From Henriciella sp. AS95 (GTDB lineage: Bacteria; Pseudomonadota; Alphaproteobacteria; Caulobacterales; Hyphomonadaceae): DNA of 64,000 bases. The stretch's first letter is position 1; each line of letters opens with the position of its first letter. The DNA is taken from assembly GCF_038900055.1 (NCBI RefSeq), contig NZ_JBBMQM010000001.1, forward strand, positions 3,038,001-3,102,000, written 5' to 3'. The notes beneath the pieces are model-generated. The model saw nothing but the letters and a program-made list of their open reading frames with translations. It searched no databases and had not been told where the DNA came from. The position numbers and the translations under genes are program-made. Of this stretch, positions 1,103-35,448 are shown in pieces.

Positions 1103-3700
1103 CTAGTAGTCGTAGCTCAGGCGAAGACCGATCGTGCGCGGACGCATCGGCGTGACGCGCTCACGGTCGAAGACGAAGTCGTTCGACAGCGCCGCATACT
1201 CATTGGTGAGGTTCGTCACGAACAGCTCTGCCGCCCATTTGTCAGCGGTCACACCGGCCGTTACGCCCAGCGTCGCATAGCTATCGAGTTCAGCCTTGTT
1301 GATCTCGATAATGTCGCTGAACGAACCGTCAGAGAAGACGAGCTGCGGCATGACATGCGCGGTGAGATACTGGCCGGCAATCTCCTGCTCGAGATCCCAC
1401 TCATAACGCACCCGCAGATTACCCTGATAGGATGGCGCGTAAGCCAGTTCGCTGCCGACGATCACATCATTGGTTGGCGTCAGGACTTCGGTGATTTCCG
1501 AATCCAGCAGCGAGAACGCACCTGCCACCGTCAGTCCCGGCATGGAATCCGGTCCCCAGGTGAAGTCACCCTCAAGGCCTTTCAGCTCTGCATTCGCCGC
1601 ATTATCGGAGAAGAACAGGTTCACGATGTTCGGATCGAAAATCGTGGTCTGAAGCCCTTCAATCTCGACGAAGAAGGCCGCACCGTTGAAGCGGAGCGAA
1701 TTGTCGAACAGCTCGGTTTTCCAACCCAGCTCATAGTTCGTCACTTCATCGGTATCGACAGCAAACGGCACAGTGTACGAGCCTGGGCCCGATGCGCCGC
1801 CTGGACGGTTCAGCAGGCCTGGGCGGAAGCCTTCCGAATAGGTCGCATAGAACATCATGTCCTCAGTCGGCGTCCATTCACCGGTCGCTTTCACGATCAC
1901 GCCATCGGTCGCGGCCTTGTCCGGATTACCAGCAGCATTACCCGGCGCATATTGAGCCGAGATATTGGTCCCGGCGCGTTGAGCATCATCTGCCTGACCA
2001 AGGTTATAGAAGGAGGAGTTTGCACTGCCTTCCAGGTCGACTTCGACATCATACCAGCGTGCACCGAGCGTCACGGCAAACTGGTCGGTCAGGTCAAACG
2101 TCGTCTCCCCGAACACACCGAGTTGCTCGTCAGTGCGCAACACGTCATTGCGGAAGATGACGCCAGCAGGGAACGGTCCGGCTTCGCTGTAATAGCCAGG
2201 CGACGCCAGGCCGACCTCGCCGGTGACATCGGTGTTGGTCAGCGGATAGTTCGGCGCAAAGCCGGTCTCACCGTTAAAGCCGAGCACCTGCGTGGAGCCA
2301 GGATAGACAAAATCGTTCAGCTCAGCGAGCTCAAGGTCAGAGTAGAACGCACCGAAAGTCGCACGCCAGCGATTTTCGCTCGGCGTGTTGAAGCGCAGCT
2401 CGTGCGTCTGAACCTTCGTCTCCGAAGAAGACCTGACATAGAGGTTCGGCGCGTAACAGGTGCCCGTCGGCGCACCCGTACTCGGATACGACACCGAACC
2501 ATCACAGATATAATATGGCAGGTACTGGCCCACGAAGAGATAGTCGGAATAATCGACAACCTGGTCGGTGTTCCGCTCGGTATAGGCACCGGTATAAAGC
2601 GCTTCGAGCATGCCGAGGCGGCCTTCCAGCGTCCATGAGGTGGAGTGGAAGTCATCCTCGATCTCTTCCGGCGTGAAGCGGACAATGTCGTAATCGTCCA
2701 GGTCAGGGTCGGAGAAGAACACGCCATCGGCCTCGATGGCCTGTTGGGAGTGCTGGATCAGCAGGTCCCAGTCGGCATTGAACTCATAATAGCCGCTCAG
2801 ACGGAAGCCCTGATAATTGGTGTCGTTGATATCATCCTCAACGATCGCGCCATTATCGGCCTGAATGAAATTGATCCCCGAAAAATCGACGATATCGACC
2901 GCAATGGAATTGTCGCCATCGGCCTGTTTACCGGCCCGCGCCTGTGAGACGACGGTGCCATTGTCACGGACCGTCCCGGCTGGGCGGAAGCGAGCCGAGT
3001 CGCGCGCCGTCAGCGTGCCACCGACATTGTCGATATAGCCACCCTGGCTGTCATTATAGACAACGCCGCGCAGCGCGAATTTGTCCGTCACCGGCACATT
3101 GATCATCGCCTCGACGCTGTTCGACATCTCGCCGCCATCGGTGAAGGAGGTCGACGCCTTGAAGCCGGCATCAAATCCGGACAGCGATGGCTTGTTGGTG
3201 ATCAGGCGAACCGTACCGGCCTGCGAGCTTGCGCCGAACAGCGTGCCCTGCGGCCCGGAGAGCACCTCGAGGCGCTCAAGGTCAGCGGCATAGACGTCCA
3301 GGTTGCGGCCCGGCTGGGACAGCGGCTGTTCGTCGAGATAGAAAGCGACGTTCGGCGCGAGACCAGCCACACCGGCGACCGTCAGGTTTGGCGTCGTCGA
3401 CGCGAGACCGCGAATATAGATCGTGTTCTGACCGGGGCCGGACCCGCCCGCCGTCACGCCCGGAAGCTGGACGAGATAGTCGCTGAAATTCTTGACGCCG
3501 AGTTGCTCAAGCTCCTGCTCGCCGAGCGCGTTGACGGTCACGGGAATGTCCTGCGCCGATTCAGAGCGCTTGGTTGCTGTCACGGTGACGGTGTTGAGGC
3601 GACGCTTTTGTGCGCCGGTCTCGTCCTGCGCCATGGCCGGCGCTGCGAATGTGAGTGCGCTGATGGCGAGCAGAGATGCTCCGCCTAGAAGTCTGTTCAT
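1103..3700 (-). CDS. TonB-dependent outer-membrane receptor
   Basis: 865 residues. A Sec signal peptide ends at APAMAQ near residue 25. A TonB-box-like stretch NTVTVTATKR follows near residues 36-45. The plug domain comes next, with landmarks VTVNALGEQEL, LPGVTAG, IYIRGLAS, VAFYLDEQPL and LEVLSGPQGTLFGASSQAGT. The rest is a long beta-barrel rich in Tyr/Asp/Asn, and the chain ends LRLSYDY with the terminal aromatic residue expected of BAM substrates. Such receptors import siderophores, vitamins or oligosaccharides with energy from TonB-ExbBD. Nothing here identifies the ligand, and the locus lacks both an anti-sigma partner and degradative enzymes. A palindrome lies about 110 bases upstream of the start, and a TPR gene follows in the same direction. 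Confidence 0.95.
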   Translation of the reverse strand: MNRLLGGASLLAISALTFAAPAMAQDETGAQKRRLNTVTVTATKRSESAQDIPVTVNALGEQELEQLGVKNFSDYLVQLPGVTAGGSGPGQNTIYIRGLASTTPNLTVAGVAGLAPNVAFYLDEQPLSQPGRNLDVYAADLERLEVLSGPQGTLFGASSQAGTVRLITNKPSLSGFDAGFKASTSFTDGGEMSNSVEAMINVPVTDKFALRGVVYNDSQGGYIDNVGGTLTARDSARFRPAGTVRDNGTVVSQARAGKQADGDNSIAVDIVDFSGINFIQADNGAIVEDDINDTNYQGFRLSGYYEFNADWDLLIQHSQQAIEADGVFFSDPDLDDYDIVRFTPEEIEDDFHSTSWTLEGRLGMLEALYTGAYTERNTDQVVDYSDYLFVGQYLPYYICDGSVSYPSTGAPTGTCYAPNLYVRSSSETKVQTHELRFNTPSENRWRATFGAFYSDLELAELNDFVYPGSTQVLGFNGETGFAPNYPLTNTDVTGEVGLASPGYYSEAGPFPAGVIFRNDVLRTDEQLGVFGETTFDLTDQFAVTLGARWYDVEVDLEGSANSSFYNLGQADDAQRAGTNISAQYAPGNAAGNPDKAATDGVIVKATGEWTPTEDMMFYATYSEGFRPGLLNRPGGASGPGSYTVPFAVDTDEVTNYELGWKTELFDNSLRFNGAAFFVEIEGLQTTIFDPNIVNLFFSDNAANAELKGLEGDFTWGPDSMPGLTVAGAFSLLDSEITEVLTPTNDVIVGSELAYAPSYQGNLRVRYEWDLEQEIAGQYLTAHVMPQLVFSDGSFSDIIEINKAELDSYATLGVTAGVTADKWAAELFVTNLTNEYAALSNDFVFDRERVTPMRPRTIGLRLSYDY

Positions 3701-8468: not shown

Positions 8469-9302
8469 ATGAAACTACACAGGTCTATCGCACCAGCACT
8501 CGCGGTGCTCGCCTGCCTGTCAACCGCAGTCCCCAGCGCTGTGGCCCAGTCGTCGGGGGGCTGCCCACCCGAGATCTCGACAACGCCGCGCGCCGGAGTG
8601 CCGGCGAAACTGACCGTTCAGGACCTGCATGTGGGCATGACGCTGGCAGAAGCCGAAGCAACACTTGCTTGCAAGTTTCCAGGCTTTGAAACGGTTTTTC
8701 CGGACGGCGGGTACATTGTCAAAACCTATGAAACGCCTGTGGCTCTCAAGCAATTCCTGACGGTTTCGAACTTTCCACCGGCAAACAGGCTCGCCATGCC
8801 CGGCAACGAACGCGTCGATCTGCAGGCGATCGGCCTGCCGGGGAAAGAAGTCGTACACGCCATCGCTCATCGCAAGATGTACGAGACAGCGTCCCGGCCA
8901 ACGAAGGACGCACTCCACTCAGCACTTCTGAAAAAATACGGCGAACCGTCAGAAATCAACGACCTCTACGCATTCGGCAAAAGATATACCTGGTTTTATG
9001 ACGTAAACGGAAACCAAGTTACGAGCAGCCAGTATCATAAACCGGGCTGCATGAAAGCAACGGCGACCAAACCCACGGGTGTTACAAGTGGATTCGCCGC
9101 GACAGGGTGCGGCGTCGTTCTCGACATCCTGGTGAAGCCCGCCCGGGACAATCCTCAACTGGCCGACGCTCTGACCGTCAATATTGTCGACTCGCACGGT
9201 CTCGCAAGCGGGGTAGAAGCGCTTCAAGGGCACTTCGACAAGATTGAGAACGCCCGGCGCAACGCCGAAGCGGCAGAGGCATCGTCAGACATAGATCTAT
9301 AA
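8469..9302 (+). CDS. Exported protein of unknown function
   Basis: 277 residues from ATG 8469. The frame extends upstream to 8406, but 8469 follows an AAAAGG ribosome site and gives a good signal peptide, MKLHRSIAPALAVLACLSTA, cleaved near AVAQ. The mature part has the phrase LHVGMTLAEAEATLACKFPGF, a pattern reminiscent of small exported proteins with an SmpA/OmlA-like GMTxxEV motif. There are four cysteines in the mature part, consistent with disulfides in the periplasm. The C-terminus is charged and alanine-rich. I do not recognise a family and assign no function. It is followed by a hairpin shared with the convergent VOC gene. Confidence 0.7.
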   Translation: MKLHRSIAPALAVLACLSTAVPSAVAQSSGGCPPEISTTPRAGVPAKLTVQDLHVGMTLAEAEATLACKFPGFETVFPDGGYIVKTYETPVALKQFLTVSNFPPANRLAMPGNERVDLQAIGLPGKEVVHAIAHRKMYETASRPTKDALHSALLKKYGEPSEINDLYAFGKRYTWFYDVNGNQVTSSQYHKPGCMKATATKPTGVTSGFAATGCGVVLDILVKPARDNPQLADALTVNIVDSHGLASGVEALQGHFDKIENARRNAEAAEASSDIDL

Positions 9303-9306
9303 GAAC

Positions 9307-9342
9307 TCGCCCGTTCTTTCCTGTCAGGGAACGGACGGGCGA
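9307..9342. terminator. Hairpin in convergent intergenic region
   Basis: TCGCCCGT (9307-9314) and ACGGGCGA (9335-9342) are exact reverse complements, five bases after the stop at 9302 and just before the stop of the convergent VOC gene at 9349. It probably serves both strands. It has only a short T-containing loop and no clear T tract. Confidence 0.5.
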
Positions 9343-9348
9343 CCACCC

Positions 9349-9906
9349 TCAGGCCGTCTCGTCGGCGATCTTCTCGTGCAGCCAGGCGGCATGCCTTGGC
9401 GCTTTCTTGGTGCGGCTCCACTCATCCAGCATGTCTTCGGCGACCGATTTCAGCTCGCTCATCTGCTCGGGCGTGCCGATATTGCAGGCAAGCTCGAGCC
9501 GGTGACCATTCGGGTCGAAGAAATAGATCGACTTGAAGATGCCGTGATGGGTCGGCCCGACGACCTCCAGCCCGCGGCTTTCGGCCCGCGCCTTGGCGTT
9601 CATCAGATCGTCCATCGTCGCGACCTTGAAGGCGATATGCTGCACCCATTCGGGCGTGTTGCGGTCCCGGTCCATATCCGGCCTGGTCGGCAGCTCGAAA
9701 AAGGCGAGCACATTGCCATTCCCGGCATCGAGAAAGACATGCATGTACGGGTCCGCCGCGCCGGTGGACGGCACCTTGTCCTCTGCAATGGCGAGCTGGA
9801 AATCCATGCCCAGCACGTCCTTGTAGAAATCCACCGTCTCCTTCGCATCCTTGCAGCGATAGGCGACGTGGTGAACGCCTTGAAGATTGGGGGCAGTCTC
9901 GGTCAT
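9349..9906 (-). CDS. VOC-superfamily protein (glyoxalase/extradiol dioxygenase-like)
   Basis: 185 residues. It starts with GVHHVAYRCKDAKETVDFYKDVLGM, the classic first beta-alpha-beta module of the vicinal oxygen chelate fold. The second module is WVQHIAFKVATMDDL, and FDPNGHRLELAC carries the C-terminal glutamate. Candidate metal ligands are the His of GVHHVAY, the His of VQHIAF and the Glu of HRLELA. Members are metal-dependent dioxygenases, isomerases or lyases. It is the last gene of the hpd operon, overlapping its upstream neighbour by four bases (ATGA), so a role in aromatic amino-acid catabolism is plausible but inferred. The about 30-residue charged C-terminal extension is longer than in minimal VOC proteins. 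Confidence 0.85.
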   Translation of the reverse strand: MTETAPNLQGVHHVAYRCKDAKETVDFYKDVLGMDFQLAIAEDKVPSTGAADPYMHVFLDAGNGNVLAFFELPTRPDMDRDRNTPEWVQHIAFKVATMDDLMNAKARAESRGLEVVGPTHHGIFKSIYFFDPNGHRLELACNIGTPEQMSELKSVAEDMLDEWSRTKKAPRHAAWLHEKIADETA

Positions 9907-25839: not shown

Positions 25840-25853
25840 GTCGTGCCCCGCCC

Positions 25854-26045
25854 TCGTGGTTCGACTTCGCTCACCATGAAGGCTATTGAGAGGGATGCTG
25901 GAAATGCCTTCGTCTACATTCTGAAATGTACCGACAGGAAATATTATATCGGCAGTCATCGCGGCGACGATGTCGCCTTGCGGGTCGCCCAACAAAATCT
26001 GCAACGTCCCAATAAGCCTTCATGGTGAGCGAAGTCGAACCACGA
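25854..26045. repeat. 192-bp element with perfect 31-bp inverted repeats around a GIY-YIG remnant
   Basis: Arms at 25854-25884 and 26015-26045 are exact reverse complements over 31 bases (starting TCGTGGTTCGACTTCGCTCA and ending GAAGTCGAACCACGA). They enclose 130 bases encoding a fragment of a GIY-YIG protein. Related repeat sequence occurs at 32893-32959 and 32983-33003. Small GIY-YIG genes with terminal inverted repeats are dispersed in many alphaproteobacteria, which suggests a minimal mobile or mobilised element. Confidence 0.75.
25876..26028 (+). pseudogene. Truncated GIY-YIG nuclease-like gene
   Basis: An ATG inside the left repeat arm opens a frame reading FVYILKCTDRKYYIGSHRGDD, the two beta strands and GIY-YIG-type core of a small nuclease-like protein, then ALRVAQQN. 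It then runs into the right repeat arm and stops. Full-length relatives have about 85-100 residues, with an Arg and a Glu catalytic residue and a C-terminal helical part. Here only the first third remains, so it is very probably decayed. Confidence 0.65.
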
Positions 26046-26075
26046 AGGCGGCAGGCGCGAAGGAAAAAATCGAAA

Positions 26076-26351
26076 TCAGTTCGCCAGCTGCAACCAGGCG
26101 CGCGCCGATTTCAGTGCTTCCTTGATCTCTTCAGACGACAGCATGTCGGCCATTTGCGAGCGGTATTCCTTCGCCGCCTCAGAACCCTTGAGCACAGCCA
26201 GGTTGAACCATTTGTGCGCCTGGACCATGTCGGCATCGACGCCGAGTCCTTCTGAATAAGCCAGACCGACCTTACACAGATCATCCCCGCTCGAGCTCGA
26301 AGAAATGCCCGTTTCAGGGGCGATTTCAGTAACCAGATCCGAATATGCCAT
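26076..26351 (-). CDS. Sel1-repeat protein
   Basis: 91 residues from ATG 26351, preceded by GAAAGGAACAAGG. The frame is open upstream to 26567 but that part is not protein-like. The core DLCKVGLAYSEGLGVDADMVQAHKWFNLAVLKGSEAAKEYRSQMADMLS is one and a half Sel1-like repeats (SLR), a TPR-related fold with the characteristic AHKWFxLA phrase. An N-terminal serine-rich segment precedes it and the C-terminus SARAWLQLAN closes the helix. Similar short Sel1 proteins are common in Caulobacterales, with no assigned role. It lies between the GIY-YIG element and a divergent small membrane protein, with several GTTAAC sites upstream. Confidence 0.8.
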   Translation of the reverse strand: MAYSDLVTEIAPETGISSSSSGDDLCKVGLAYSEGLGVDADMVQAHKWFNLAVLKGSEAAKEYRSQMADMLSSEEIKEALKSARAWLQLAN

Positions 26352-26465
26352 TGCCTTGTTCCTTTCACCCACCCGGCTGGCTTTTGCGCCTTGTATCCGA
26401 GCCTGTTTTCCATCACGCCACCGCCTCGGTGACTTGAACTCAGGTTGACCTCGGACCTTTGCCGT

Positions 26466-26528
26466 ATGGTTAACAGGAAAAGGCCAAAACACTCTGTGTG
26501 TTAACAATCTGGGCACGGATGTTAACCA
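26466..26528. promoter_or_regulatory. Cluster of TTAAC/TTAACC sites in divergent promoter region
   Basis: TTAACCAT on the minus strand (26466-26473), GTTAAC at about 26500 and GTTAACCA at 26521-26528 lie between the Sel1 gene and the small membrane protein gene. They match half-sites for CtrA-like regulators of Caulobacterales. Binding is inferred only. Confidence 0.3.
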
Positions 26529-26652
26529 AGGGGCCGATTTCAGACGGAACCCCCGCAAATCGCGCAAAGCCCGTCAAAGATTTGCAGCCCGCCTGGCTTC
26601 GCCCTACCTCTAGGACCGGCGCTCAACACAGCCAAGAAAGGCGGTCCCATCC

Positions 26653-26856
26653 ATGGCTTTCGCATTCCTGCTCTATATCGTCCTGCTCGGCACCTTCGTC
26701 TTCGCCATGTGGCAGATCTGGGAGAAGGCCGGATATAACGGCGCCTGGTCGCTGCTGATGTTCATCCCCATCGTGAACCTCGCCTCCTTCTTCTATCTGG
26801 CCTTTTCCGACTGGCCGGTTCACCGCATGCTCGGCGGGCCGGATGATTTTGACTGA
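26653..26856 (+). CDS. Small two-helix membrane protein
   Basis: 67 residues preceded by AAAGGCGG. Two hydrophobic segments are visible, MAFAFLLYIVLLGTFVFAMW (1-20) and NGAWSLLMFIPIVNLASFFYLAF (about 29-51), followed by SDWPVHRML and an acidic tail. The phrase KAGYNGAWSLLMFIPIVNL is typical of small inner-membrane proteins of unknown function found in many alphaproteobacteria. It is divergent from the Sel1 gene and 74 bases before the oxygenase gene. No function can be assigned. Confidence 0.75.
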   Translation: MAFAFLLYIVLLGTFVFAMWQIWEKAGYNGAWSLLMFIPIVNLASFFYLAFSDWPVHRMLGGPDDFD

Positions 26857-26930
26857 CACGATAGGCCGCAGCCGCGCCTGAAACTGCAGACTTGGGCTTC
26901 CGCCCCGCTCAGCGTATATTCACGCCCGTC

Positions 26931-27872
26931 ATGACAGATCTCTTCGAACCCATCCCCTTCAGCCTCTGGAAAGAGGACAAGGCCGCCTTCGCCGACAAGC
27001 TCGGCCGATCCTTCCGCGAGACCGGCTTTGCGGTCATCACCGGCCACCCGGTCGACCAGGCCATCATCGCCCGCGCCAATGACGCGGCAAAGGACTTCTT
27101 CAAGCTGCCTGAAGACGTGAAGGAAAAATATCACGACGCCGCCAATGGCCGTCAGCGCGGCTACACGCCCTTCGGCACCGAGAACGCCAAGGGCCAGACA
27201 GCCGCAGACCTCAAAGAGTTCTGGCATACCGGCCGCAAGCTTCCGCCGGACTCCAAATACCGCGCCACCATGAAGGACACGCCAGTCGTCGACGAAGTGC
27301 CGGAGTTCGACCCGGCCACCCGCGCTTTCTTTGAAGAGCTGGACGAATTTGGCCGCACCCTGCTGCGCGCCGTCGCCCTCCACCTCAACCTCCCCGAGGA
27401 CTGGTTCGACGACAAGGTCGAGATGGGCAACTCCATCCTCCGCCTGCTGCACTATCCGCCGCAGAAGAACCCGCCGCCCGCCGGCACGGTCCGCGCCGCC
27501 GCGCATGAAGACATCAACGTCATCACGCTTCTTCTGGGCGCCGAGGAGGCTGGCCTGGAAGTGTTGCACCGCTCGGGCCAATGGCTCGGGGTGAACCCGC
27601 CGCCCGACGCGCTCGTCATCAATTGCGGCGACATGCTGCAGCGCCTGACCGGCGGCGTCCTGCCCTCGACGACCCACCGCGTCGTCAATCCTGAGCCTGA
27701 ACGCGCCAAATTCCCGCGCTATTCCACGCCCTTCTTCCTGCACTTCAATCAGGACTTCCTGATCGAGCAGCTCCCGCAATGCATGGAAGAAGGCGGCAAG
27801 GCCCAGCCCCCCATCACCGCCCAGGACTACCTCATGGAACGCCTCCGCGAGATCGGGCTGGTCAGGGCTTGA
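26931..27872 (+). CDS. Isopenicillin N synthase-like 2-oxoglutarate/Fe(II)-dependent oxygenase
   Basis: 313 residues from ATG 26931. The N-terminal DIOX_N part has FRETGFAVITGHPVDQAIIARANDAAKDFF. The C-terminal jelly-roll holds the iron site: AAHEDINVITLLLG (His-x-Asp) and LPSTTHRVVNP (second His, then Arg for 2-oxoglutarate). These enzymes hydroxylate or desaturate small substrates in the cytosol. YLMERLREIGLVRA is the usual C-terminus of a proteobacterial subgroup. The start at 26931 gives MTDLFEPIPFSLWKED, which matches the normal family start better than upstream codons. It overlaps the methyltransferase gene by four bases, suggesting shared function. Confidence 0.9.
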   Translation: MTDLFEPIPFSLWKEDKAAFADKLGRSFRETGFAVITGHPVDQAIIARANDAAKDFFKLPEDVKEKYHDAANGRQRGYTPFGTENAKGQTAADLKEFWHTGRKLPPDSKYRATMKDTPVVDEVPEFDPATRAFFEELDEFGRTLLRAVALHLNLPEDWFDDKVEMGNSILRLLHYPPQKNPPPAGTVRAAAHEDINVITLLLGAEEAGLEVLHRSGQWLGVNPPPDALVINCGDMLQRLTGGVLPSTTHRVVNPEPERAKFPRYSTPFFLHFNQDFLIEQLPQCMEEGGKAQPPITAQDYLMERLREIGLVRA

Positions 27873-28615
27873 GCCAGACGCCGGACCGCTTCTTCAATGA
27901 GGCGGCCTTCGCCCGGCTCTATGATGCGATCTGCGAGACAGCGGGCCGCGAGGATTACGACTTCTATCTGCCGCACATCTTAGCCGCCGGCAGCGTCCTC
28001 GACATCGGCTGCGGCACCGGCACGATTCTCGAAGAGGCCCGCGCCGCCGGCCACACAGGCCGCCTCACCGGCATCGACCCGGCCGACGGCATGATGGAGA
28101 TCGCGCGCCAGAAACTCGATATCGACTGGGTCTGCGGCTTCCTTGAAACCCAGAACTGGGAGGACCAGTTCGACCTCGCCGTCATGACCGGCCACGCCTT
28201 CCAGGTGCTGATTGGGAACGAGCAGATCGCGAGCTTCCTCGCGGCCGTCCACGCAGCCCTGAAACCCGGCGGCCGCTTCGCCTTCGAAACCCGCAATCCC
28301 GGCGCCCGCGCATGGGACAACTGGACGGGCAACAAGGCCAAACAAATCACTGTGGATAATACACAGTATACGGATCGACGAGAGGTCATCCGCCCCTTCG
28401 ACGGCCAGACCGTCACCTTCACCCACACTTTCAATTCCCCCGACTGGCCGGAGCCACAGGTGAGCACCAGCACGCTGCGATTTCTCTCGGCGGATGCGCT
28501 AAATGCAGCGCTGACCAATGCCGGCTTCAGCATTCAGTCCCAATATGGCGACTGGGATGGCTCGCCCGTCACCGACACCAGCCCCGAAATCATCACGATT
28601 GCAGCGAAAGCCTGA
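27869..28615 (+). CDS. Class I SAM-dependent methyltransferase
   Basis: 248 residues if started at TTG 27869, which overlaps the preceding stop as TTGA and places SQTPDRFFNEAAFARLYD at the N-terminus. Upstream in-frame codons are inside the oxygenase gene and not protein-like. The SAM-binding motif I is LDIGCGTGTILEEARAAG, motif II is GIDPADGMMEIAR, and FDLAVMTGHAFQVL and LKPGGRFAFETRNP are motifs IV-V. The substrate is unknown. The rare TTG start suggests translational coupling to the oxygenase. It ends just before the repeat-rich gap. Confidence 0.88.
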   Translation: MSQTPDRFFNEAAFARLYDAICETAGREDYDFYLPHILAAGSVLDIGCGTGTILEEARAAGHTGRLTGIDPADGMMEIARQKLDIDWVCGFLETQNWEDQFDLAVMTGHAFQVLIGNEQIASFLAAVHAALKPGGRFAFETRNPGARAWDNWTGNKAKQITVDNTQYTDRREVIRPFDGQTVTFTHTFNSPDWPEPQVSTSTLRFLSADALNAALTNAGFSIQSQYGDWDGSPVTDTSPEIITIAAKA

Positions 28616-28940
28616 AACCTCCGTTCATCCCCGCGCAGGCCGGCGGGAGGGTATAGCGATGTCTCAGAGAAAAAATGATCTGAGCATGCTGATCGTTCTC
28701 CCTGCTCACGAAGACAGTTAGTTCTGGATTTCGTGCCTTGAGCACCCACGCGCCAGGTATCGCTTCAGTTCGACCATTCGGCGCACTATTGAGCCGCCAC
28801 AAACAGCAACGACTTGTCTTGGTCTGTCGTGAACAACCGCAATGGAAGCCTACACCGCTGGCGAACTCACCCTCAATTAGGGGCAAATCGAAACTCCAAG
28901 CGAAATACTTTTTCAACTTTGAGGGTGTAATGGCGGATTT
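28616..28940. repeat. Gene-free 325-bp region with a REP-like element and small inverted repeats
   Basis: No convincing ORF was found. CCCGCGCAGGC (28630-28640) is an exact 11-mer shared with 32719-32729 and 47453-47463. CTCAGA (28663-28668) and TCTGAG (28679-28684) form a small hairpin. TCACCCTCAA at about 28868 and TTGAGGGTG near 28919 form a longer-range inverted repeat just before the TelA cassette. The region probably holds the promoter of that cassette. Confidence 0.5.
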
Positions 28941-29738
28941 ATGGTTAAGTCTGTCGAATTGCAAGATCTTGAAGAGCGCCGGCGTGGTTTTCTTACGCTG
29001 GCAATCGTAAGTTTCATTGCGCTGGCCGCCACGCTCCTGTTTGCCATCCAGTATTTTCATACAAACAATGCTCCTGAATTTTCCGGCATCCATGTCCCCG
29101 ACCGGGCAGCAGCGGCGATCCCCGGCTTGAGACAATATGACCAAACGCTGGACCTCTCGCTTCTCGACCGCGCCAAGCTCGCCAGCTCCGCGGTTTTGAA
29201 GATCACCTACCTGCTATTGCTTCCGGCCCTGCTCTTCGCTCTCTACAAGCGACGCTGGCTCCTCTGCCTTATTCTGGTTGGCATCTTCACCGCCATTCTT
29301 CTGGTCAGTGACCTCAGCACAGCGGCGCTCGCCCAGCCAAAGACTTTTGTCGGCGATGATGTTGCGCGAGAAGTGTCAGGATTGCTTGAAGAAGACGGGC
29401 GCTTTCCCACAGAGCAGGCCTATATCGATCTGCAACTCGCCCGCAATGCAACCATTCCAGAAACGGTGGTCGGGTCCATCGCCAGCCGGGAGATCGACGC
29501 GCTCCAGTCGCGCGTCCTGTATGACCGCACCGGCTTCAGCGACCTGCCGGCGGGCTGTTCCACCAATGGCTGCTGGACCTTCAGACAGTCGCAGAATGGT
29601 GCCATGGCCTCCGCAATTATTGTGCTCGGCTTCCTTATCTCAGCGCTTGTGAGCTGCCTCATGATTTTCGTCCTCGCTCGCCACATTGTCCAGATTGAAA
29701 CGCTCGGCACGCCGCAATCTCCAAGTATGGGATCGTAA
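28941..29738 (+). CDS. Four-helix membrane protein A of the TelA cassette
   Basis: 265 residues. Membrane segments are predicted by eye at about 17-37, 83-101, 106-124 and 221-246. RRR at 13-15 and KRR at 103-105 place both ends in the cytosol. The loop between helices 1 and 2 (about 45 residues) and the large loop 125-220 would then be periplasmic. The latter contains C206 and C211, which could form a disulfide. I recognise no family. Its stop TAA shares a base with the next start (TAATG), so the genes are translated together. The overall helix-loop pattern repeats in the next protein, suggesting a heteromeric membrane complex. Confidence 0.75.
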   Translation: MVKSVELQDLEERRRGFLTLAIVSFIALAATLLFAIQYFHTNNAPEFSGIHVPDRAAAAIPGLRQYDQTLDLSLLDRAKLASSAVLKITYLLLLPALLFALYKRRWLLCLILVGIFTAILLVSDLSTAALAQPKTFVGDDVAREVSGLLEEDGRFPTEQAYIDLQLARNATIPETVVGSIASREIDALQSRVLYDRTGFSDLPAGCSTNGCWTFRQSQNGAMASAIIVLGFLISALVSCLMIFVLARHIVQIETLGTPQSPSMGS

Positions 29739-30832
29739 TGAGAACGCCGTCATCAGTGCCATCCTTCGGTCAACGAAGCGAACTCGCCTCCGATCGACGC
29801 CAAAGCCTACGGCAAAGGGTGGCGCAGGGGATTGAACGCCTGGTAAAGGCACGAAGCCTCTCAGGCAGGCTCGCCTGGTGGTCGCTGACACTTGCCGTCG
29901 TCGGTCTCGCGGTCACAGCTGCCTTATCGAACCAGTTGAGTGTCGATGGACGCGGTGAACCGCTGATCATTGGCTTTACCCAGCTCAATGATGTCATGCC
30001 GGTCACTGAGTATAATTCAATCCGGCTCAATCTCGATGTTTCGGGTCTGTGGTCAACATACTATTGGAGCCTCGCCTGCTACACCGTGATGATATGGGCA
30101 GGTATGACGCTTGCCCTTTGGTGGACGCGCCATCACAAGATATCATTCGTTGGTGCATTTCTGGCTGTGGCAGGTCTTGGTGCCCTGATCCTAGGGCCGG
30201 CCGAGAAGACCAATTACGGATATGAAGGCGGCACAGAACGCTTCGCGACCAACACCGGCATTCTCAAGAATTTCGCCGAGTACGACCCGAATAATCCAGG
30301 GCTCAACAACGCGTTGGAGAGCTTCGTATTCACGCGGGCGCTGAATGGCGAGAAAGAGCAGCTCAATTCTCCGGACCTCGCTGAGCGCGCCGAAGCGGAG
30401 TCGAAGCGGGCGGGCATGACCGTCACGACCGAGCGGCTGCGCCAGCATTACGAGACGCGGATCGCGATGCTTCAATTCCTTTCCGCCCAGTATTTTACGG
30501 CCAATGGTCAACCCGCCCGGGCAAAACTCTTTCTTCCGATCGATATTTCTGACCTGGGCTTCCATCCGGAGTCCCAGGTCGTTCTCGCGCATCGAATCGT
30601 CTGGCTGTATGACGAACTCGGCGTTCCAGTGCTGACAAACCCAGCCTTTGAGAAGCCGCTTCGCGAGCGCGCTCAAACGTGGCGCCGCTTGCTCGGCTGG
30701 GGCCGGATGGCAAAGACGGTCACGGTCTGGTCGGCCGGCCTCTTTCTGCTCTCATTCCTGATCTATTTGGTGCTGAGTTTCCAGGTCCGCCGGATCGAAC
30801 ATGTCGGCGCAGCCAAGATCGCGCATGGCTGA
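29738..30832 (+). CDS. Four-helix membrane protein B of the TelA cassette
   Basis: 364 residues. An arginine-rich cytosolic N-terminus of about 44 residues precedes membrane segments at about 45-64, 108-129, 136-153 and near 330-353. As in protein A, a first periplasmic loop of about 45 residues and a long one between helices 3 and 4 (about 175 residues, mostly alpha-helical) are predicted, with RHHK between helices 2 and 3 on the cytosolic side. The order of elements matches protein A, although sequence identity is not obvious. No catalytic motif was seen. It overlaps the coiled-coil gene by up to 32 bases. Function unknown. With TelA it may form an envelope stress or defence module. Confidence 0.75.
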   Translation: MRTPSSVPSFGQRSELASDRRQSLRQRVAQGIERLVKARSLSGRLAWWSLTLAVVGLAVTAALSNQLSVDGRGEPLIIGFTQLNDVMPVTEYNSIRLNLDVSGLWSTYYWSLACYTVMIWAGMTLALWWTRHHKISFVGAFLAVAGLGALILGPAEKTNYGYEGGTERFATNTGILKNFAEYDPNNPGLNNALESFVFTRALNGEKEQLNSPDLAERAEAESKRAGMTVTTERLRQHYETRIAMLQFLSAQYFTANGQPARAKLFLPIDISDLGFHPESQVVLAHRIVWLYDELGVPVLTNPAFEKPLRERAQTWRRLLGWGRMAKTVTVWSAGLFLLSFLIYLVLSFQVRRIEHVGAAKIAHG

Positions 30833-31565
30833 CCCATCCAACATACCGTGCGCAGACGATATTCGATCAGTCATTGACGAGTTTGATCGCCGGCTCGACG
30901 CGATAGACACCCAATTCGACGTCCGCCTCGACAATCCGTCGCGCGCCTTGCGCGAAGTACTGGACCAGGTGACCGGCGAGATCAGGTCCGCGGACATCTC
31001 CCTTCTGGAGCGCGACGCGGGATGGTGGGCAAGGTTCAGCGGCTCGCGCCTCAAGGATGAAGTCAAACTGCAGGCGGACATTAACCGGATCGATGCCCAG
31101 ATCGCGAATGCCCGGCAGATCGCAGCGGAGCTGAAGCGCCGCCGACTCGACTTCCTGAGCCAGGCTGAGACACTCGATAAGGCGATCTTCGCCCTGCAGG
31201 AATTAACCGACTGGGCGCAATCAGTACACGGCTCCGCGCGCCGACCAAAGTCCGGGGCCGATGAGGCCTGGTCTCTGACACGGCTCGAAACCAAGCTAGC
31301 CAATCTCAAAACGGCTTTGGTCTCCCACCGCATTCATGCCGAGCAGTTGAAGGTGACGCTGAGGACTGTCGAATTTCAACTAGATGTTCACACCGAATTA
31401 GACAAGAAATTCTATCCGGTGTGGAAGCAGTATCTCTCGCAGCTTGCTCAGTCGGAGGCCACCCCGGGCACCTTCCCCGTCACTGGCGCAGAGATCAAGC
31501 AGATGAACGGCAAGGTCAGAGCCCTCCTGAAGGGGGACGGCCACAGAAAGGCGCAACCGCAATGA
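30801..31565 (+). CDS. Coiled-coil protein of the TelA cassette
   Basis: 254 residues from ATG 30801. ATG 30825 (MADPSNIPCADD) is an alternative that leaves only an 8-base overlap. The protein is nearly all alpha-helical, with heptad-like stretches at about 75-125 (EVKLQADINRIDAQIANARQ, then ELKRRRLDFLSQAETLDKAI) and 150-200. It has no signal peptide or membrane segment. The phrase WWARFSGSRLKDEVKLQADI resembles in layout the RFTTLEKQIDQVLASID region of the adjacent TelA protein, so it could be a distant short relative or a partner. It overlaps the TelA gene by four bases. The exact family is not recognised. Confidence 0.7.
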   Translation: MSAQPRSRMADPSNIPCADDIRSVIDEFDRRLDAIDTQFDVRLDNPSRALREVLDQVTGEIRSADISLLERDAGWWARFSGSRLKDEVKLQADINRIDAQIANARQIAAELKRRRLDFLSQAETLDKAIFALQELTDWAQSVHGSARRPKSGADEAWSLTRLETKLANLKTALVSHRIHAEQLKVTLRTVEFQLDVHTELDKKFYPVWKQYLSQLAQSEATPGTFPVTGAEIKQMNGKVRALLKGDGHRKAQPQ

Positions 31566-32614
31566 CTAAGATGACCGCAACTCACTCACAGGCCATAACC
31601 GAAGCCGATGACATCGAAGCGCGCCGCCTGGCTGATGCCATTGACGTCAACTCGACCACGTCAATCGCTGCGTTCGGTCGCCAGTTTGATGCGCTCAATG
31701 CGACTTATGCCGATGAGATGATCAAGTCGCTCAGCGACCAGAATTCCGAGGAGCTTAGAGAGCGGCTTGCCAGCGTCGTACGGGCTGCAAAGTCCTTCGA
31801 AGTCAGCCCGGCACCGTCCCGCCTCAGCCAGGTTCCAGTCATCGGCCGCCTGGCGTCGGGACTTCGCTCCGGCCGCGACCGGCTATTTGCCCGCTTCACC
31901 ACGCTCGAAAAGCAGATCGACCAGGTTCTCGCCAGCATTGACGGCGCGTTCGACCGTCTCGCCCATCAGTGTAACTCGCTGGAAGAGATGTATGATGGTG
32001 TGCGCGACGAGCAGAGGATGCTCGGCATTTATAAACGCGCCTGCGAAATCCGGCTTGAAGCGATTCACGCGGAGGACTCGACTGCACCAAGCACTGTTGA
32101 AGAAGAGCGCGACCGAGAGCTGATACGCAATGCCCTTGAAAAGCGCGTCGCCGATCTCGCTGTCCTGAAACAGAGCGCCGTGCAGACTCTTCCGATGATC
32201 CGCCTTATGAGCGCCAACACGTCAGCCCTGATCGATAAGTTTCACAACATTAAAACTCTGACTGTGCCGTCGTGGAAACGTTCTTTTGCCATGGCTTTGT
32301 CTCTCCGCGAACAACAGAGCGCGGTTGAGCTTGCTGAAACGATCGACGACGCGACCAACCACTTCCTGAAGAAGAACGCCGAACTCTTGCGCGACAATAC
32401 GATAGCGACCGTCAAGTCGAACCAACGTCTGGCCATCGATATCGAGACGCTCGAACACGTGCACGAAACAATCGTCTCCACTTTTGAGGACGCCCAAGCG
32501 TGCTTCGCAGAAAGCCGGAAATCACGGCTTCAAGTCTTGGAAAAGCTGAACAGCATGAATGATGACATGTCTCATCAGACGACCCTGTCAGTCGGGACCA
32601 GTTCCAACTCGTAG
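31562..32614 (+). CDS. TelA/KlaA-family (toxic anion resistance) protein
   Basis: 350 residues from ATG 31562, chosen because of the ATGA overlap with the upstream gene. Characteristic TelA (PF05816) phrases are FGRQFDALNATYADEMI, VPVIGRLASGLRSGRDRLFARF, EKQIDQVLASIDGAFDRLAHQCNSLEEMY, LEKRVADLAVLKQSAVQTLPMIRLMSANTSALI, VPSWKRSFAMALSLREQQ near residue 235 and IDIETLEHVHETIVSTFEDA. Family members are cytosolic helical proteins associated with tellurite resistance, TerD-type loci and stress or phage-defence settings, and their biochemical role is unclear. XpaC, the usual partner, is absent. Here TelA follows two membrane proteins and a coiled-coil protein. Confidence 0.85.
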   Translation: MTKMTATHSQAITEADDIEARRLADAIDVNSTTSIAAFGRQFDALNATYADEMIKSLSDQNSEELRERLASVVRAAKSFEVSPAPSRLSQVPVIGRLASGLRSGRDRLFARFTTLEKQIDQVLASIDGAFDRLAHQCNSLEEMYDGVRDEQRMLGIYKRACEIRLEAIHAEDSTAPSTVEEERDRELIRNALEKRVADLAVLKQSAVQTLPMIRLMSANTSALIDKFHNIKTLTVPSWKRSFAMALSLREQQSAVELAETIDDATNHFLKKNAELLRDNTIATVKSNQRLAIDIETLEHVHETIVSTFEDAQACFAESRKSRLQVLEKLNSMNDDMSHQTTLSVGTSSNS

Positions 32615-33061
32615 GCTATCTTCCGAATTCCACGTTCGAGCAACGCGGCGCTTCGCGAAGAGCTGAGTTAGAAAGCCAAATGGGCGAAATTGCTCCAGAT
32701 AAGGTTTTGCTTTTCCGTCCCGCGCAGGCGGGGACCTCTTGCAGCAAGCTCCGACCTAAATTGCCTGAGCCCCCGGCCAGCGCCAGGGAGATCGGATAAT
32801 TTCATATCTGGTGCCAATGGCCTTATGGTGCGACCTTCATCCAATGCCCGTCGAGGGACGCTCACCATAGCGATCTTACGACAGGTTAGAAGAAGCCTTC
32901 ATGGTGAGCGAAGCATGCCCCGGCGAAGGCCGGGGTCGAACCACGAAGGCGGCAGACGCTTACGTCTCGACGCCATCTCGTTCACCACGAAGGCGGCAGG
33001 CGCACCCCCGGCACCCACACAAAAACATCCCCCACCCGGCGCGCCCGCCTATACTCCCCGC
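32615..33061. repeat. Gene-free 447-bp region with several repeat elements
   Basis: A REP-like hairpin GTCCC...GGGAC at 32717-32735 contains the 11-mer CCCGCGCAGGC. At 32893-32959 there is a 67-base relative of the GIY-YIG element repeat: AAGCCTTCATGGTGAGCGAAG, then an inserted hairpin CCCCGGC-GAAG-GCCGGGG (32918-32935), then TCGAACCACGAAGGCGGCAG. CACCACGAAGGCGGCAGGCGC recurs at 32983-33003. No ORF with protein-like character starts before 33062. Confidence 0.65.
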
Positions 33062-33670
33062 ATGCTCGACCTTCACACCGCCGCCTGCCTTGAGAAGAAC
33101 TGGACGGTCCTCACCGGCCTGCTCGGCCTCATCCAGCGGCTGGTGAACGCGCCCGTCTTCACGCAAAAGCTGAAGCGGCGTGTCTGTGGTCTCCTGCGCA
33201 TCGCAGAGAGCTTTGCGCGGCGCCTTCTGGTCATCCGGGCGTCCGCGCTCGTCATGGCCGCGCCAGCGCCGCAGCGCGCAAGCGCAAACCCGCAAATTGC
33301 ACCCGCCCGCCCACGAACCACTGTGACATTGCCCCTCGTTGAAGCCCTGCCCCGCTTTCCGGATCCTGATGAGATGTCCGGGCCATGTGGCGCGCCACCT
33401 GCTCCCGTTGCCGATGACACGCCAGCCGACCCGGCGCGCGCAATCGCCCGTCTCGCAGCGCTCTGCCGCATCCTCGACAATGCCGATCACCACGCCCGCC
33501 GGATGGCCCGTTATCTGCGGCAGCTGAAAGCCCGGACAGGCCGCTACCACCCTTTCAGCCTGCGACGCCCACCCGGCACCTCCAGGCATCCGGCGGACGC
33601 CGCGCTCGACAGCCAGTTGAGGGATGCCGATTTCTTCGCTCGCCGCGTGCTCGATCCGGCGCCCGGCTAG
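33062..33670 (+). CDS. Hypothetical protein
   Basis: 202 residues from ATG 33062. The frame is open upstream through repeat sequence, which is not coding. The N-terminus MLDLHTAACLEKNWTVLTGL is followed by basic, Arg-rich helices (LKRRVCGLLRIAESFARRLLVIRASALVMA) and a Pro/Ala-rich linker (residues 70-130). A C-terminal helical part has ARAIARLAALCRILDNADHHARRMARYLRQLKARTGRYHP. It is cytosolic with no recognisable motif. No strong ribosome site precedes it. Base composition and codon use look genuine (third-position GC). Comparable small Arg-rich proteins occur in Hyphomonadaceae without assigned role. Confidence 0.6.
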   Translation: MLDLHTAACLEKNWTVLTGLLGLIQRLVNAPVFTQKLKRRVCGLLRIAESFARRLLVIRASALVMAAPAPQRASANPQIAPARPRTTVTLPLVEALPRFPDPDEMSGPCGAPPAPVADDTPADPARAIARLAALCRILDNADHHARRMARYLRQLKARTGRYHPFSLRRPPGTSRHPADAALDSQLRDADFFARRVLDPAPG

Positions 33671-33779
33671 CCTCCCGCACCCAGTTCAGCCAAACAGACC
33701 GCCTCCCCGGCGAACGCACCCGCTTGCCCGGCCCTCGCGGCACCCCTTGCAACCGTGCTCCATTCGCTTTTCCCTAGGA

Positions 33780-33794
33780 CTGACGGTCCGTCAG
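33780..33794. promoter_or_regulatory. TetR-type palindrome upstream of amidohydrolase
   Basis: CTGACGG (33780-33786), one T, and CCGTCAG (33788-33794) form a perfect 7-1-7 palindrome only 23 bases before the start codon. The sequence resembles operators bound by TetR/AcrR-family repressors. No TetR gene is in the window. Confidence 0.55.
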
Positions 33795-33817
33795 AGACCC
33801 CACCAAGGAGGCGCGTA

Positions 33818-34831
33818 ATGTTCGATAATGATGAGTGGCTGAACCAGCACCGCGAGGAGGTCATCGACCCCGATCGAGAAATCATCGATCCCCATCACCA
33901 TCTCTGGCGCCCTGAAAACCCGGCCGGCATCGTCTATGACCTGCCCGAGCTCTGGTCCGATACAGAAGACGGCCACAAGGTCACCCAGACCATCTTCATG
34001 GAATGCGGCTCATCCTACCGCCCCGACGGCCCGGATCATCTGAAGCCGATTGGTGAGACGGAATACATCACGGAGGCCGCGATCCGCGCCAGCCAGGATC
34101 CACGCAAGGCCCAGATCGCCGCCTTTATCGGCCACGCCGATCTCCGCCTGCCCGTCGAGACGCTCGATGAAGTCCTCGACGCGCATATCGTCGCTTCAGA
34201 GGGCCTCTTCCGCGGCATCCGCCATGCCGGCCCTTTCGATGAGGCCGGCGCCGGTTTCCGCATCCGGCCGCACGCGCCGAAAGGCCTCTACAAGGACGAA
34301 GATTTCAGGCGCGGCGTCCACCGCCTCGGCGAGCGCGGCATGACCTATGACACCTGGAACTATCACACCCAGATTCTCGACTTCGCAGACCTCGCCGCCG
34401 CCGTCCCCGGCACGACCATGATCCTCGACCATTTCGGAACACCCCTCGGCGTCGGCCCCTATGCCGGAACCCACAAGGCGAACTTCCCCAAATGGAAGGA
34501 CGACATCGCCGCCGTCGCGGAAAACCCTAACGTCTATGCCAAGCTCGGCGGACTCGCCATGCCGGACAATGGCTTTGGCTGGGATAAGCGCGACACACCG
34601 CCATCATCAGACGAGGTGGTCGAGGCCCACGCGCCCTACTACCACCACATGATCAAATGCTTCGGCGCCGAGCGCTGCATGTTCGAGAGCAACTTCCCCG
34701 TCGACCGGCTGTCGCTGAGCTACCGCGTCTACTGGAACGCCGCCAAGAAGATCGCCGCCGACTATACAGAGCTTGAGCAGCAAGCCATGTTCAGCCGCGT
34801 CGCCCGCCAGGTCTACCGGATAGAGCCCTGA
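33818..34831 (+). CDS. Amidohydrolase-2-type metal-dependent hydrolase
   Basis: 337 residues from ATG 33818, with AAGGAG eight bases before it. REIIDPHHHLWRP near residues 20-32 carries the N-terminal HxH metal site of the TIM-barrel amidohydrolases. LFRGIRHAGPF, MILDHFGTPLG (metal and catalytic His) and FESNFPVD (the C-terminal Asp) complete the pattern. The closest types are lactone hydrolases or decarboxylases such as 2-pyrone-4,6-dicarboxylate hydrolase. The substrate is not evident. A TetR-like palindrome over its promoter implies induction by a small molecule. Its stop overlaps the convergent GNAT gene by 19 bases. Confidence 0.9.
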   Translation: MFDNDEWLNQHREEVIDPDREIIDPHHHLWRPENPAGIVYDLPELWSDTEDGHKVTQTIFMECGSSYRPDGPDHLKPIGETEYITEAAIRASQDPRKAQIAAFIGHADLRLPVETLDEVLDAHIVASEGLFRGIRHAGPFDEAGAGFRIRPHAPKGLYKDEDFRRGVHRLGERGMTYDTWNYHTQILDFADLAAAVPGTTMILDHFGTPLGVGPYAGTHKANFPKWKDDIAAVAENPNVYAKLGGLAMPDNGFGWDKRDTPPSSDEVVEAHAPYYHHMIKCFGAERCMFESNFPVDRLSLSYRVYWNAAKKIAADYTELEQQAMFSRVARQVYRIEP

Positions 34832-35448
34832 TCGCGGCCCTGCCCGGCCATCCAGGCCTCACGGGAAATCTCCCACACCTGCGACGCCCGTGTCGTCCCA
34901 TCCGGCCGCACACTTTCAATGTCGCCCTTATAGTCAAAGCCGGTCTTCTCAAAGAGCTTCTGGATACGGACATTATCAAGCGCGGTCGTGTTGCAGATCA
35001 GGTCGAGGTCCAGCGCATCGAACATCCAGGTGAACGTCTTCGCCATCCCCTTCGCGCCCTGCCCGGCGCTCTGCAGGTCAGGCCGCATCGCCCCGGCCAG
35101 CTCACCAGCAGCCCATTCCGGCCAGATCTGCGCTTCGGAATAGCCGGCAAGCTTGCCCGCCTCATCGAAGTTCAGCGACAGCAGCCCTTCGCCCGCCTGT
35201 TGCGCCGCAAGGCTCTTCTCGATGTACGCGCCCACGCTCTCCCGCGTCAGCGGTCTTGGTAGCGAATAGATCCAGCGATTGACCTCAGGCTGCTCGAATA
35301 GCTCAAGCAGGATATCTTCATCCCCCGGTCTCGCCAGCCGGCTATGATCGGCAGTCGATGGCATCTCTTCGACGCCGCGAACCAGCGCGCGGATTGCCTC
35401 TTCGCGTGGCGGAATGGTCCGGTTTCGTGTCCAGGGAAGCTCGCCCAT
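34813..35448 (-). CDS. GNAT-family acetyltransferase (RimJ-like)
   Basis: 211 residues. The GNAT elements are SRLARPGDEDILLELFEQPEVNRWI (first strand and helix), LAGYSEAQIWPEW (strand 4), PDLQSAGQGAKGMAKTFTWMFDALDLDLICNTTALDNVRIQKLFEKTGF (acetyl-CoA site and RimJ-like NVRIQKLFEK-GF). The usual Q/RxxGxG/A pattern appears as QGAKGMA, so acetyl-CoA binding is retained. N-acetylation of a protein N-terminus or small amine is possible. It is last in the operon after the nucleoside hydrolase and ribokinase, three bases from the latter. A role in nucleoside salvage is not suggested by its sequence. Confidence 0.85.
   Translation of the reverse strand: MGELPWTRNRTIPPREEAIRALVRGVEEMPSTADHSRLARPGDEDILLELFEQPEVNRWIYSLPRPLTRESVGAYIEKSLAAQQAGEGLLSLNFDEAGKLAGYSEAQIWPEWAAGELAGAMRPDLQSAGQGAKGMAKTFTWMFDALDLDLICNTTALDNVRIQKLFEKTGFDYKGDIESVRPDGTTRASQVWEISREAWMAGQGRDQGSIR

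Follow-up and report, generated by a model that had tools for sequence, protein, structure and literature searches.

The window analysed here, a stretch of 64,000 nucleotides from Henriciella sp. AS95 (contig NZ_JBBMQM010000001.1, positions 3,038,001 to 3,102,000), carries at 28941-32614 a cassette of four genes that is very likely a chromosomal kla-type operon (KlaA, KlaB and KlaC), with its genes rearranged to the order C, C', A, B and the membrane subunit doubled. A preliminary description of this DNA, made from the sequence alone, had proposed a membrane-linked TelA module of an arrangement that it did not recognise; the module fits, but at least three of the four genes match the described klaABC operon. 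The cassette is therefore not new in kind: it is a variant of the known klaABC that belongs to a lineage of its own, in which the membrane subunit is doubled. The four overlapping genes, with the junctions TAATG, 32 or 8 bases, and ATGA, lie as that description had claimed:

28941..29738, plus strand: gene 1 (g1), KlaC/TelB-like inner-membrane protein of 265 amino acids with four helices (profile match, layout)
29738..30832, plus strand: gene 2 (g2), probable second KlaC-like membrane protein of 364 amino acids (position, layout, weak C-terminal profile match)
30801..31565, plus strand: gene 3 (g3), KlaA homologue of 254 amino acids (BLASTP, hhalign; alternative ATG at 30825)
31562..32614, plus strand: gene 4 (g4), KlaB/TelA of 350 amino acids (PF05816, BLASTP)

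Membership of g4 in the TelA family, as first proposed, is clear from PF05816 (198 bits against a cut-off of 30, E 2.3e-58). The protein is 35% identical to IncHI2 KlaB (202 bits in BLASTP), 36% identical to RP4-type KlaB and 40.6% identical to TelA of Azospira pAZI09, and it matches a KlaB profile from 12 plasmid loci with P 1.3e-60. Fifteen plasmid stretches were read, and KlaA-TelA-KlaC is a common TelA setting among them (12/15); these 12 entered the KlaA, KlaB and KlaC profiles, while L013, nearly a duplicate and truncated where its record begins, was left out along with L019 and L023, which show no KlaA-KlaC pattern. The gene directly upstream of klaB, with a 4-base overlap, is g3. It had been taken for a coiled-coil partner of TelA; the protein is identified as a KlaA homologue, itself related to TelA. 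It matches IncHI2 KlaA in BLASTP (44 bits, E 6e-10, 25% identity over 208 columns) and the profile of 12 plasmid KlaA in hhalign (P 7.4e-13). A tblastn search of 72,556 plasmid records with g3 gave weak matches only (316 records, best E 7e-3, 24% identity), which lie in features annotated as KlaA or 'toxic anion resistance protein'. The KlaA and KlaB profiles are similar to one another (P 2.9e-8), which agrees with the statement, in the available text of PMC5696584, that the two proteins are homologous. A search of solved structures with the TelA and KlaA profiles gave nothing at E below 0.04, and g1-g3 scored over no cut-off in Pfam, NCBIfam, PADLOC or PHROGs (best E 0.0071, well short of the cut-off of the family concerned).

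The four-helix layout proposed for g1 is borne out by hydropathy, which places helices at 18-36, 83-101, 107-125 and 226-244. The layout that had been read from the membrane proteins of the cassette, namely helix 1, a loop, a close helix 2-3 pair, a long loop and helix 4, is that of plasmid KlaC in 11 of the 12 proteins examined; the twelfth, L011, has a fifth helix. In hhalign, g1 matches the 12 plasmid KlaC over 188 columns (P 7.7e-6), and none of 200 shuffles that preserve the transmembrane segments reached its score. Against larger KlaC profiles it beats 150 and 100 shuffles as well as 18 control membrane open reading frames (ORFs), in a match that covers only about 55-60 N-terminal columns. 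When g1 is aligned with 28 KlaC, R13, Y161 and A170 are invariant, and L10, P53, G86, L166, Q168, G205, F206 and R251 are nearly so. No pairwise BLASTP match of g1 to IncHI2 KlaC was obtained, and tblastn of g1 and g2 against PLSDB gave none either. The AlphaFold2 model of g1 is all-helical (pLDDT 65.9) and has no match in the PDB (best E 2.0).

Genome contigs gave no match when searched with the window TelA alone; with the KlaB alignment, 201 relatives were obtained, of which the best 80 were kept, a biased set in that they are those nearest to the window. In this set, a KlaA-profile match lies upstream of TelA in 79 of the 80 loci (78 by a stricter rule) and an ORF of at least three helices adjoins in 72, so the possibility raised beforehand, that such genes are rarely next to TelA in other genomes, does not hold. 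Eight loci have no adjacent membrane ORF by the rule used (L096 among them has a KlaC-profile match), and the 72 include at least one ORF unlike KlaC, of 1152 residues in L082.

Eleven of the 80 loci carry alphaproteobacterial names, one of which (L030) is RK2-like; in all the other ten, at least two membrane units or ORFs are present. Six Rhizobium-type loci have one fused ORF of 671-730 residues with 9-12 helices, and separate membrane ORFs are found in L034 (Anderseniella; two), L043 (two) and L026 (Novosphingobium; three). The profile of the six fused proteins gives two matches to KlaC at different positions (P 7.8e-7 and 1.4e-6). When profiles were built for the first and the second unit, with the separate genes of L034 and L043 included and, for the first unit, also that of L026, the two matched one another with P 9.4e-10. 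Among the remaining 70 loci, no adjacent ORF under 800 residues has eight or more helices, separate second membrane genes not being counted here. A two-part membrane component of a TelA module, as the preliminary description envisaged, thus fits with relatives in Alphaproteobacteria that fuse or multiply the unit. Some details of these loci were noted in passing. In Rhizobium phaseoli (L028:7010-9114), the fused double-KlaC gene is split into two overlapping frames, and is broken or mis-sequenced; the single open frame is present in L029 and L032. In L027-L029 and L032 (Rhizobium), the kla genes adjoin and converge with a long ORF that by eye is SMC-like, which suggests a stable chromosomal position. 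In Novosphingobium, KlaA-KlaB-KlaC is followed by two paralogous two-helix proteins (L026:8021-8806 and 8803-9531; mutual match P 8e-32), which look like KlaC units without the hairpin; only the first shows similarity to KlaC-type profiles, and that weakly (P 4.8e-4 to 0.003).

The lineage of the window TelA agrees with this setting. In a tree of 48 rows it joins L026, L034 and six Rhizobium-type loci (support 98/98), and 12 other TelA proteins of the window's order and class form a separate group (100/100). In a tree of 28 rows, which leaves out these 12 and the two longest plasmid rows, it again stands with the alphaproteobacterial kla loci (99/98). A tree that joins it to the IncP/IncHI2 clade instead is disfavoured (p-AU 0.0065), for a group that was chosen after the first tree. 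The branch of the window TelA is long (2.11-2.28), and its placement is therefore less sure than the support values say. Among viral contigs, g1 found no match and KlaB matched five loci; TelA matches in phage records amount to 147 records.

The identity of g2 is less sure than that of the other three genes, and it is likely, though not as firmly as for the operon as such, that it is a second KlaC. Its layout is partly as described, with helices called at 45-63, 135-153 and 328-346 and the expected helix 2 below thresholds; the AlphaFold2 model, of low confidence (pLDDT 46.5), has a helix at 101-132. Its C-terminal part matches the 12-member KlaC profile weakly (score 28.2, P 0.0038 over 81 columns), at a score that none of 300 shuffles reached. 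The motifs FLSAQ, LGFHPE and RRIE stand in KlaC order, and in each trial alignment of g2 with KlaC, LGFHP is in register with the GFxP motif. That g2 is instead an unrelated membrane protein merely located in the operon appears fairly unlikely, given its layout, position, motif order and shuffle result, and given that relatives in the same TelA clade carry more than one membrane unit. Several results nevertheless speak for such an unrelated protein. With 38- and 55-member KlaC profiles, the score of g2 is inside the shuffle range. There is no pairwise similarity between g1 and g2 and no BLASTP match of g2 to IncHI2 KlaC, and a relative of g2 turned up neither in PLSDB nor in any of the 384 genomes that the class sample contains besides the window's own. 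The fused Rhizobium profile is matched weakly by g1 (P 8.5e-4) and not by g2 (P 0.065), and neither protein matches the Anderseniella pair in pairwise comparison (P 0.04-0.49). The motif pattern was written after inspecting g2 and is satisfied by 3 of 5000 shuffles of g2; it is found in 22 of 38 KlaC and in none of 17 single units of doubled proteins, and g1 fails its strict form. The YxxAQ motif comes into register in only some trial alignments (with L030 alone, and with L030 and L042 together with L057), and the AlphaFold2 model was discarded as uninformative.

Compared with klaABC of RP4/RK2 (kilA-telA-telB; fiwB), the cassette has the same adjacent KlaA and TelA and a four-helix KlaC-type membrane partner of like layout, whereas it differs in its order (C, C', A, B against A, B, C), its two membrane genes and its chromosomal location. 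The plasmid's KorA/ParA/ParB neighbours have no counterpart among the ten neighbour genes scanned, and g1 and g2 lack a detectable TrbC-like hairpin. In the IncHI2A kla (CP035634.1, L002), KlaA, TelA/KlaB and a membrane protein also form one string joined by overlaps, but the single KlaC is downstream. The alphaproteobacterial kla loci (Rhizobium-type L027-L029, L032, L036, L043, L051 and L097; L034; L026), eight of ten of which were in the 48-row tree, share the TelA clade and the presence of more than one KlaC-like unit or membrane ORF, and differ in that the membrane gene or genes are downstream and, in six loci, fused to one protein. A membrane gene upstream of KlaA-KlaB is seen in the kla of a Steroidobacter metagenome-assembled genome (L057), which has one membrane gene only and belongs to another TelA branch. 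In the broad sense of the gene set, the window holds a TelA-family KlaB, an upstream KlaA and a KlaC-type membrane protein (g1); in the strict IncP sense (plasmid-borne, A-B-C, one membrane gene) it differs, since the order is C-C'-A-B and the contig is at least 3.1 Mb long. A comparison of a Novosphingobium telA with kilA/telA/telB has been published (available text of PMC4059872). No description of the alphaproteobacterial arrangement was found in the searches made of an open-access library.

Within the genus, the cassette was gained or lost. TelA is present in one of 29 genomes, the window's own, and absent from the 28 others. Among 299 genomes of the order, four match the KlaA profile, namely that of the window and, weakly, three others; in the phylum sample 13 of 398 do so (the window's own, G583 and 11 weak matches); the 11 weak ones also match the KlaB profile and are therefore TelA-family proteins. 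In the congener G022 only about 250 bp separate the two flanks, against about 4.4 kb in the window: window 27881-28609 corresponds to 2055-2785 of its locus L124, and window 33011-33525 to 3037-3557. In the congener G012 this site is occupied by 3.4 kb of other genes (L121:2927-5418), by eye a small PepSY-like protein, a response regulator and a histidine kinase. In five further congeners the flanking oxygenase and amidohydrolase genes are 0.2-2.3 kb apart, and blastn shows no match to the cassette there. The features around the cassette are:

28610..33010, no strand: stretch present in the window, replaced by about 250 bp in G022 (empty site; flank matches to L124)
28630..28643, plus strand: REP-like element left of the cassette (14-mer)
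32719..32732, plus strand: REP-like element right of the cassette (14-mer)

The gaps had been called repeat-rich, which is partly right: the 14-mer, for which we chose the label REP-like, lies on both sides (pattern CCCGCGMAGGCSGG, 12 sites genome-wide), and there is a 20-bp direct repeat at 32940/32984. The GC content of the cassette (0.55-0.59) is below most of the flanks. No Rfam match was found in 26000-35000, and no conjugation gene was recognised by Pfam in the ten neighbour genes, which counts against a conjugation-related role. Further to the left, at 25844-26058, lies a short inverted-repeat element at a small ORF that is GIY-YIG-like by eye; it matches L124 at several places and L121 at one, and is possibly a REP-type repeat family.

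A similarity to a conjugative pilin was found in one part of the KlaC family. Residues 64-153 of the RP4-type KlaC of plasmid R702 (L014:5053-6003) align with the RP4 pilin TrbC (33 of 90 identical, 37%, E 5e-15), over the helix 2-3 hairpin. The protein scores 33.4 against PF04956, above the cut-off of 27.9, and matches the pilin profile with P 3.3e-10 (three RP4-like KlaC: P 1.3e-10). The NCBIfam TrbC model is matched over TrbC 38-114, which we take to be about the mature pilin. This homology of the RP4-type hairpin with TrbC, as read from the alignments, may be a lead for how kla blocks mating; no report of it was found in the searches made of an open-access library. On the other side, the NCBIfam score (56.8 bits, E 2.2e-15) is below the curated cut-off of 179, and helix 2-3 of g1 (P 0.097) and of g2 (P 0.39) has no detectable pilin similarity. 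A pilin origin of the whole family is not supported, as 13 other KlaC (P 0.032) and 21 Acinetobacter KlaC (P 0.29) do not match, nor do the first- and second-unit profiles of the doubled proteins (P 0.45 each). L071 KlaC, tested singly, is borderline (P 4.8e-4), so a faint pilin signal may extend beyond RP4-type KlaC. An alignment that combines 18 KlaC-type proteins with g1 and g2 has 20 members, of which six, unspecified, give a PF04956 match at E of 1 or less. One TrbC/VirB2 pilin match is present in the window's genome (G000:C1:1862761-1863051), about 1.2 Mb from the cassette, and probably belongs to a type IV secretion system.

The explanation of the cassette as a whole that we consider best, and on balance probable, is a kla-type operon encoding an assembly that guards the envelope and interferes with conjugation. 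In the inner membrane, the products of g1 and g2 would assemble into a hetero-oligomer whose periplasmic segments are helical, and KlaA and KlaB may dock on its cytosolic face. The complex of g1-g4 so predicted would guard the envelope and interfere with foreign membrane machines, for example conjugative type IV secretion, and tellurite tolerance would be a by-product. The IncP-1alpha kla is FiwB, which blocks transfer of IncW (R388) and requires KlaA, KlaB and KlaC, according to the available part of PMC5696584, and klaABC is induced in new RP4 recipients, as given in the available text of PMC7314908. In a survey in PMC5696584, in the part available, just 7 of the 52 plasmids with KlaC hits also carried KlaA and KlaB, which counts against this explanation; our guess is that this figure might reflect pilin-like hits. 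A bolder and rather unlikely version is that KlaC-family proteins are pilin-mimicking subunits that poison or seal type IV secretion, the alphaproteobacterial heteromeric form, with at least two subunits and that of the window included, being a chromosomal conjugation barrier and KlaA/KlaB its cytosolic actuator.

Tolerance of envelope or toxic-anion stress could instead be the true function, with conjugation interference a side effect of the plasmid copies, and this is quite plausible, if short of probable. The use of kilA-telA-telB as a tellurite-resistance marker (PMC12540391 and PMC5734746, available text), which is also among the grounds for the preferred explanation, favours it, as do the Acinetobacter copies on chromosome records (L067, L078, L091), a Rhizobium copy on a 4.3-Mb contig (L043), and the words TelA or XpaC in the available text of papers on bacteriocins and cell-wall antimicrobials; the fertility inhibition by the IncP locus and the pilin-like hairpin of RP4-type KlaC argue against it. 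An anti-phage defence module is improbable: the cassette is accessory in the genus and its GC content is low, but the best PADLOC match of the four proteins has E 0.031 and Pfam recognised no defence gene among the ten neighbours scanned. A TerD/XpaC-type stress locus that has lost its partners would account for the TelA-family g4, but is most improbable and was rejected, since the tree already sets the window TelA in the kla part, apart from the 12 others, KlaA is present, and the whole genome has no match to TerD (PF02342) or to PF10112, which we take to be the XpaC family. These negatives agree with the lack of an XpaC partner or Ter gene noted at the outset.

Many TelA proteins bear the annotation 'toxic anion resistance' with no mechanism attached to it, and how kilA-telA-telB confers tellurite resistance and blocks plasmid mating is an old question. 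The conserved set of KlaA, KlaB and one or more KlaC, the multiplied membrane part, and the pilin-like hairpin of RP4-type KlaC make it directly testable.

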